Assembly (NCBI GenBank): GCA_035279405.1
Contig: DATEHU010000049.1
Span: forward strand, 1 to 64,000
DNA: 64,000 bases
Source: Gammaproteobacteria bacterium
GTDB taxonomy: Bacteria > Pseudomonadota > Gammaproteobacteria > Natronospirales > REEB76
Direction: 5' to 3'
A program made the translations under genes and the position numbers. The notes under the pieces were generated by a model. That model saw only the letters and a program-made list of their open reading frames with translations, made no database searches and was not told the origin of the DNA. Below, one piece after another: positions 53,872 to 54,362 of the stretch (within the stretch, counting starts at the first letter, position 1; each line of letters opens with the position of its first letter).

Positions 53872-54362
53872 GTAAATACCGTTCACCCTGAGCCCTTCGG
53901 CAAGCTCAGGACAGGCGTAGCCCGAAGGGCGAAGTCGAAGGGTCCTGAATTGGAGTGCCACGGATGGCAATGTTTACACTGTATATCCTGAAGTGTGCCG
54001 ATGAAACGCTGTACATCGGTCACACCGATAATCTAAGCCGACGTTTACAGCAGCATGAACAGAGTAAAGTAGATGCCTATACTGCAAGGCGATTGCCATT
54101 GAAACTGATTCATGCTGAGGAATTCGAAAGCCGCTACGAAGCGCTTACTATGGAGCGTAAGTTAAAAGGTTGGAGTCGCGCCAAAAAGCTGGCATATGTA
54201 GCCAATGACTGGGCAGAGGTAAGCAGACTAGCCAAGAGCAAACCCAAAAATGATTGAAAAATCCGTTCGTACTGAGCTGGTCGAAGTACGAACGGGTCTT
54301 GCTATTATCTCAGCGTTCAGAAACCGGCACCCTTCGACAAGCTCAGGGTGAACGGATTTAAG
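53872..54362 (+). mobile_element. Small inverted-repeat-bounded element carrying a GIY-YIG gene
   Basis: The left end reads TAAATACCGTTCACCCTGAGC (53872-53892) less one base, and the right end carries nearly the same sequence inverted (54362 back to 54341). Left palindromes include CCTGAGC/GCTCAGG (53887-53910) and GCCCTTCGG/CCGAAGGGC (53892-53930). On the right are CCGTTCGTAC/GTACGAACGG (54263-54295) and CACCCT/AGGGTG (54328-54350). The motif CTGAGC..GTCGAA is shared by all. Only the GIY-YIG gene lies inside. It interrupts the hpd-hmgA interval. Mobility is inferred from the layout. Confidence 0.6.
53964..54257 (+). CDS. GIY-YIG nuclease-family protein
   Basis: This 97-residue, single-domain protein has the GIY-YIG core written as LYILKCADETLYIGHTDNL, then RRLQQHE and the catalytic-region Glu (about residue 62-66 in ALTMERKLKGWSRAKK). 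Its relatives (the YhbQ/UPF0213 group) are small DNA nucleases of uncertain role. GGAG lies 9 bases before the ATG at 53964; a GTG three codons earlier is possible. It is flanked on both sides by inverted palindromic repeats, a pattern that suggests it travels with, or acts on, those repeats. Confidence 0.88.
   Translation: MAMFTLYILKCADETLYIGHTDNLSRRLQQHEQSKVDAYTARRLPLKLIHAEEFESRYEALTMERKLKGWSRAKKLAYVANDWAEVSRLAKSKPKND

Follow-up and report, generated by a model that had tools for sequence, protein, structure and literature searches.

A clade of small GIY-YIG nuclease genes is paired with a class of DNA hairpins that have a tandem G·A mismatch within the stem, and this widespread nuclease-repeat pairing is real. 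One such gene lies in the window (the whole stretch of DNA analysed, 64,000 nucleotides), where it is enclosed by inverted hairpins. We lean towards the view that the small GIY-YIG gene and the inverted hairpins, which would serve as its own recognition sites, form the autonomous unit of a repeat family. Such a unit is probably selfish and mobile, combining a nuclease specific for the hairpins with the repeats cognate to it; the mobile-element reading is plausible but unproven.

The unit in the window

The unit comprises the following features:

53879..53943, plus strand: left terminal inverted hairpin, with the outer tail CCGTTC followed by ACCCTGAG...TCGAAGGGT; the same class of left arm is present in homologous loci
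53964..54257, plus strand: GIY-YIG nuclease gene, 97 aa from ATG, of the KGWSRAKK-type clade
54263..54295, no strand assigned: perfect 33-nt palindrome CCGTTCGTACTGAGCTGGTCGAAGTACGAACGG, an extra copy within the unit, just past the stop codon
54328..54355, minus strand: right terminal inverted hairpin CACCCTTCGACAAGCTCAGGGTG, with the outer tail (G)AACGG; the hairpin proper spans 54328-54350

The 97-residue GIY-YIG gene between inverted repeats, as proposed by the first-pass annotation, is indeed present, as can be seen from its reading frame, its only Pfam match (PF01541, E 6e-17) and the complementary arms; an alternative GTG start at 53955 would yield a protein of 100 aa. The terminal inverted repeats had been put at about 20 bases. 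The inverted ends are real, but the exactly matching arms (53879-53893 and 54341-54355, 100% complementary) are 15 nt long, with a weak match beyond. Further palindromes with a common core had also been described, and the core is carried by the hairpin at 53885-53943, which is compound and has a long loop with a nested hairpin (CCTTCGGCAAGCTCAGG, GCCCGAAGGGC), by the palindrome at 54263-54295 (DNA fold of -10.7 kcal/mol, z -5.4) and by the hairpin at 54328-54350.

Within the 64-kb window, TGAG...TCGAA hairpins of this class are found only at the unit. The genome-wide count that the first-pass annotation had suggested retrieved 14 occurrences of CTTCGACAAGCTCAGG with at most one mismatch in the 2.46-Mb genome and none of the reversed control, so that the objection raised in advance, that the genome would hold no further copies, did not hold. 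GIY-YIG domains are encoded three times in the source genome, namely by the window gene, by a 612-aa frame that is probably uvrC and by a 106-aa UPF0213-like paralog.

The AlphaFold2 model of the window protein has a pLDDT of 91.4, and the nearest folds retrieved by Foldseek are UPF0213 (1zg2/1ywl) and Slx1, a structure-specific nuclease. The presumed catalytic positions Y7, Y17, G19, R27 and E64 are conserved in the alignment of the clade. An assignment as a defence gene was rejected, the PADLOC matches to PDC-S14 being weak (E above 1e-4).

Hairpins accompany one clade of GIY-YIG nucleases

The motif TTCG-N3/4-GCTCAG is present within 500 bp of the gene in 66 of 80 homologous loci, with 146 matches in the 100.6 kb near the genes versus 25 in 636 kb farther away (reversed control, 1 and 3). 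A general hairpin motif was found in 79 of the 80 loci (201 matches near versus 38 far; control, 0 and 1). When all 106 clade genes were considered (the 80 homologous loci, 25 additional relatives and the window), 102 had a hairpin within 500 bp, compared with 3 of 30 other GIY-YIG paralogs (p 5e-21), many of which come from the same genomes and from which one duplicated fragment was omitted. GIY-YIG genes thus do not occur equally without repeats, as the first-pass annotation had allowed they might; its remark that related repeats occur in many genomes with such a gene close by agrees with the recurrence of the pairing in many bacteria. In a phylogenetic tree, long, supported branches separate the hairpin-bearing genes from the other GIY-YIG paralogs, with many forks left open for so short a protein.

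Nine of the 10 genomes of a nuclease sub-clade scoring 101-128 bits contain a variant, second hairpin (CCTTCGAG...CTCAGG). This speaks for a joint change of hairpin and nuclease.

In another GIY-YIG clade, a sister group marked by the motif GTLYIGVT...W.R.WK...NP.W.DL, about 10 of the 37 loci have CGTC-type hairpins. These hairpins stand beside the sister-clade genes of L173, L278, L286, L288, L285, L277, L171 and L166, and in the first four they form an inverted pair around the gene. The presence of CGTC-type hairpins in the sister clade supports a general rule by which one nuclease branch goes with one repeat class.

Structure and conservation of the hairpins

The tandem G·A mismatch (GAG...TCGA in the folded strand) within the stem is invariant across 136 distinct hairpins aligned. 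Since these were gathered with the core TTCGAC-NN-GCTCAG fixed, covariation was tested by the outer pairs only. In hairpins from homologous loci, outer stem pairs are Watson-Crick in 133 and 128 of the 136 sequences, with maxima of 97 and 64 in shuffles. The innermost T-A pair is replaced by C-G at two other genes, and the tail CCGTTCG (outward; CGAACGG in inverse) is conserved beyond the stem. The two arms of a single unit often differ in stem sequence; each hairpin is therefore conserved as a structure and not as a copy of its partner. Hairpins lying at most 60 nt upstream of the gene are in minus orientation in 38 cases and plus in 2, while those downstream are plus in 47 cases and minus in none.

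Were the hairpins signals for transcription termination or RNA processing that bracket a small gene by chance, they could also be intergenic, as they are in the regions read, and terminators covary too. An invariant tandem G·A mismatch, a conserved tail beyond the stem, an inverted orientation at the upstream end, a copy number that follows a single nuclease clade and the lack of any Rfam match for the hairpins make this explanation hardly credible.

Repeat number across genomes

In the genome searches, the gene was scored as present among the matches listed, and genomes counted as gene-less may hide a gene. All 11 of 299 Pseudomonadota genomes with a GIY-YIG match of at least 130 bits carry hairpins (17-160 per genome), and 6 of the other 288 have at least 10 (p 3e-16, with genomes counted as independent of kinship). 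Among 151 genomes of one genus, those with a stand-alone gene contain a median of 40 copies versus 2 (p 1.7e-6, kinship ignored), with exceptions both ways. At least 20 repeats are present in 14 of 59 genomes of one genus that are gene-less among the matches listed, and a few stand-alone genes occur with a very low number of short-form repeats. Some large f46-family genomes have the second hairpin and no high-scoring gene among the matches listed. The short form reaches 319 copies in one genome, and sphingomonads and rhizobia-like genomes are among those in which the hairpins abound.

Several further observations were made on the repeats. Genomes G030 (L224-L243) and G341 have 91 and 110 short hairpins, respectively, and no small clade GIY-YIG gene among the matches listed; their repeats may be orphans, or the partner may have been missed. 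Repeats are translated into recurrent spurious peptides (PSTSSGRTE, VRPELVEG, FDKLR.NG and LRQAQPER) in predicted proteins of L049, L059, L083 and L080. A long-loop form (CTGAGGAG... or CTGAGTAG...) is found with GIY-YIG genes in L043, L076, L089 and numerous genomes of the genus g93; at a conserved place, these genes either run on into an RNA methyltransferase-like gene or immediately precede it, and the short-form repeats that accompany them are few. In L012 (G000:C40:79207-79268), a head-to-tail CCCTTCGACAGGCTCAGGACAGG array with a 23-bp period occupies the loop of a larger hairpin.

Locations of the units and evidence for mobility

Clade genes, 81 in number, fall into about 34 gene neighbourhoods, many of them stable within a genus. 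The rnc-era locus of one genus is found with the gene-bearing unit, with doublets lacking the gene, with remnants or as an empty junction, and its flanks are too diverged to place exact junctions. In 400-kb stretches of three genomes, 17 of 21 hairpin pairs at most 150 bp apart are plus-minus. In some doublets, the spacer reproduces the inner flank of the unit that bears the gene. The likeness to REP-RAYT units drawn in the first-pass annotation is borne out as far as many locations and REPIN-like inverted doublets are concerned, but its other part, movement driven by the nuclease, is not: target-site duplications at hairpin ends were found in none of 89 units, and the one CTAG duplication seen lies at an outer repeat.

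This duplication comes from the comparison of empty sites that had been suggested, which thus revealed nothing at the hairpin ends and a duplication in a single copy. Two doublets of the source genome, L008 (1472-1631) and L010 (1465-1633), are located within larger inverted repeats like TAGA[AG]CC[CT]ATCTCAAAAT. L008 is bounded by CTAG on both sides, versus CTAC at the empty site of G002 (G002 compared with G000), the only precise empty site. Since CTAG flanks the larger inverted repeat outside the doublet, the L008 copy was probably carried by an IS5/MITE-like element. As there is no duplication at hairpin ends and the sole exact empty site belongs to a larger carrier, movement of the units by the nuclease itself is something we infer.

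L008 and L010 might suggest that the hairpins are parts of MITEs of DDE transposons (IS5-like, CTAG target) and that the GIY-YIG gene is a passenger. This we regard as very improbable: the outer TAGA[AG]CC[CT]ATCTCAAAAT-type repeat was not found at the window unit, the flanks in other lineages show no more than a scarcity of G on the left and of C on the right, and the restriction of the hairpins to one GIY-YIG clade and the stem covariation would be left unexplained.

No Y1_Tnp match was detected in 10 of 14 genomes selected for the family, and in the other four none was hairpin-flanked; RAYTs are therefore an unlikely agent in those 10. As for viral spread, tblastn against IMG/VR revealed no relatives, and doublets were present in only 15 viral contigs; plasmid and phage matches were below 60% identity.

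The lack of target duplication also agrees with a resident nuclease resembling Ssn, which would cut single-stranded DNA at cognate repeats, modulating DNA uptake or recombination, and would move nothing, the repeats spreading otherwise or slowly by repair. A precedent is Neisseria Ssn, whose cleavage site on single-stranded DNA lies at a repeat that occurs hundreds of times; the UPF0213 and Slx1 folds and the sister clade with its CGTC-type hairpins, some in inverted pairs, point the same way. Against it, the gene lies inside the hairpin pair in a fixed inverted geometry in about 34 contexts, and the presence/absence pattern between rnc and era resembles that of a moving unit. We consider a purely resident role rather unlikely, and a mobile unit remains our preferred reading.

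The hpd-hmgA site

The element had been said to separate hpd from hmgA, and this is consistent with its absence between the two genes in seven same-family genomes in which both are readable; the gap there is short in some and holds a small unrelated reading frame in others. The same hpd-hmgA spot is common to the window unit and 11 Rhodanobacteraceae/Lysobacterales-like loci, whose genes are related. In the tree, the window unit is nearest to a Lysobacterales unit at this spot (grouping with L020 at 95/94). The window hpd, in turn, is nearest to that of its own genus (92% aa) and closest to G003 throughout. A recombination tract around the unit was considered and rejected, hmgA having no consistent shift to a Rhodanobacter-like donor and the flanks no clear transfer tract.

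Exchange via flanking homology and homing could both explain the shared spot. A free-standing GIY-YIG homing gene would cut an unoccupied hpd-hmgA junction and be copied in by repair, the palindromes being incidental or binding sites; related units at a common spot, next to a native hpd and flanking genes lacking a clear transfer tract, are in its favour. Homologous recombination of the intergenic segment accounts equally well for the common spot, though, and a single-site homing gene sits poorly with the specificity for the hairpins, with doublets that lack the gene and with about 34 contexts. With no conserved target seen outside the hairpins, we judge homing improbable.

Proposed mechanism

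The reading as a mobile hairpin-nuclease unit is based on the specific association, the fixed inverted geometry, stem covariation, the hairpin variant of the sub-clade, the many locations and the occurrence of repeats without Y1, all of which are observed. The nuclease would recognise the hairpin by the tandem G·A mismatch in a short stem and by the CCGTTCG tail, upon extrusion of the hairpin from single-stranded DNA, e.g., the lagging-strand template, and would cut it at the foot. Repair or strand joining after the cuts would copy or move hairpin-bounded segments, i.e., the gene-bearing unit and gene-less inverted doublets, and the window unit may have come in between hpd and hmgA in this way. 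That the nuclease binds and cuts the hairpin is very likely; that such cutting drives movement is evenly balanced in our judgement. More tentatively, a GIY-YIG nuclease and not an HUH or DDE transposase might recognise and spread tandem-G·A hairpins, as gene units and REPIN-like doublets, in Pseudomonadota and Chloroflexota, and a parallel branch would drive the CGTC repeats.

Pairing of the hairpins with one nuclease clade provides a testable agent and brings a second nuclease fold within the REP-RAYT concept. For the CGTC repeats, which were remarked to lack a transposase (PMC3733652), the sister-clade link points to a possible answer, and hairpin-specific nucleases are candidates for tools.

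Comparison with known systems

The literature covered, which did not include the primary reports on Ssn and on RIME (Osteras 1995), contained no account of a GIY-YIG/hairpin pairing or of a partner for the repeat. Like REP-RAYT/REPIN systems (REPtrons; PMC2817692, PMC3116915, PMC3733652), the family has hairpin repeats, inverted doublets, multicopy dispersal, a nuclease gene flanked by its own repeats and orphan repeats in gene-less genomes. It differs in the GIY-YIG fold, with no HUH Y1 (RAYT) transposase between the repeats, and in the absence of a GTAG tag at the hairpin foot, where the tail is CCGTTCG/CGAACGG. CGTC-tagged REPs, including Neisseria dRS3, are palindromic, mostly head-to-head dimers that are abundant in Alphaproteobacteria and reportedly have no associated transposase gene; they have a CGTC tag, an 8-9 bp stem beginning with AT and a CCA tail (PMC3733652). 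The hairpins of the clade studied here differ from them in sequence, stem and consensus, and only one clade gene has a CGTC hairpin nearby.

The window protein shares its fold and sequence family with UPF0213 (1zg2, 1ywl), but sampled UPF0213/YhbQ-like paralogs rarely have hairpins, unlike the window clade. Free-standing GIY-YIG homing endonucleases are likewise GIY-YIG nuclease genes, and possibly mobile ones, yet have a single cognate site, in contrast to the about 34 contexts and own hairpins of this family. Unlike DDE insertion sequences and MITEs, its 89 units have no target-site duplication at the terminal hairpins.

Ssn nucleases of Neisseria, reportedly described by Chenal et al. (Nat Commun, 2025), are GIY-YIG enzymes that act site-specifically on single-stranded DNA and have cognate NTS repeats. 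The likeness lies in a small GIY-YIG nuclease, a cognate repeat that is multicopy in the same genome, and differing homologs with differing repeats. In the window family, a multicopy repeat in the same genome was found by position and copy number, and its role as substrate is what we infer. Compared with Ssn, the family is distinguished by G·A-mismatch hairpins with CCGTTCG tails, by a gene enclosed by inverted hairpins, by many insertion contexts and by REPIN-like doublets. Of the known kinds, the Ssn family comes closest, so that the system described here is in all likelihood a variant and not a new category.
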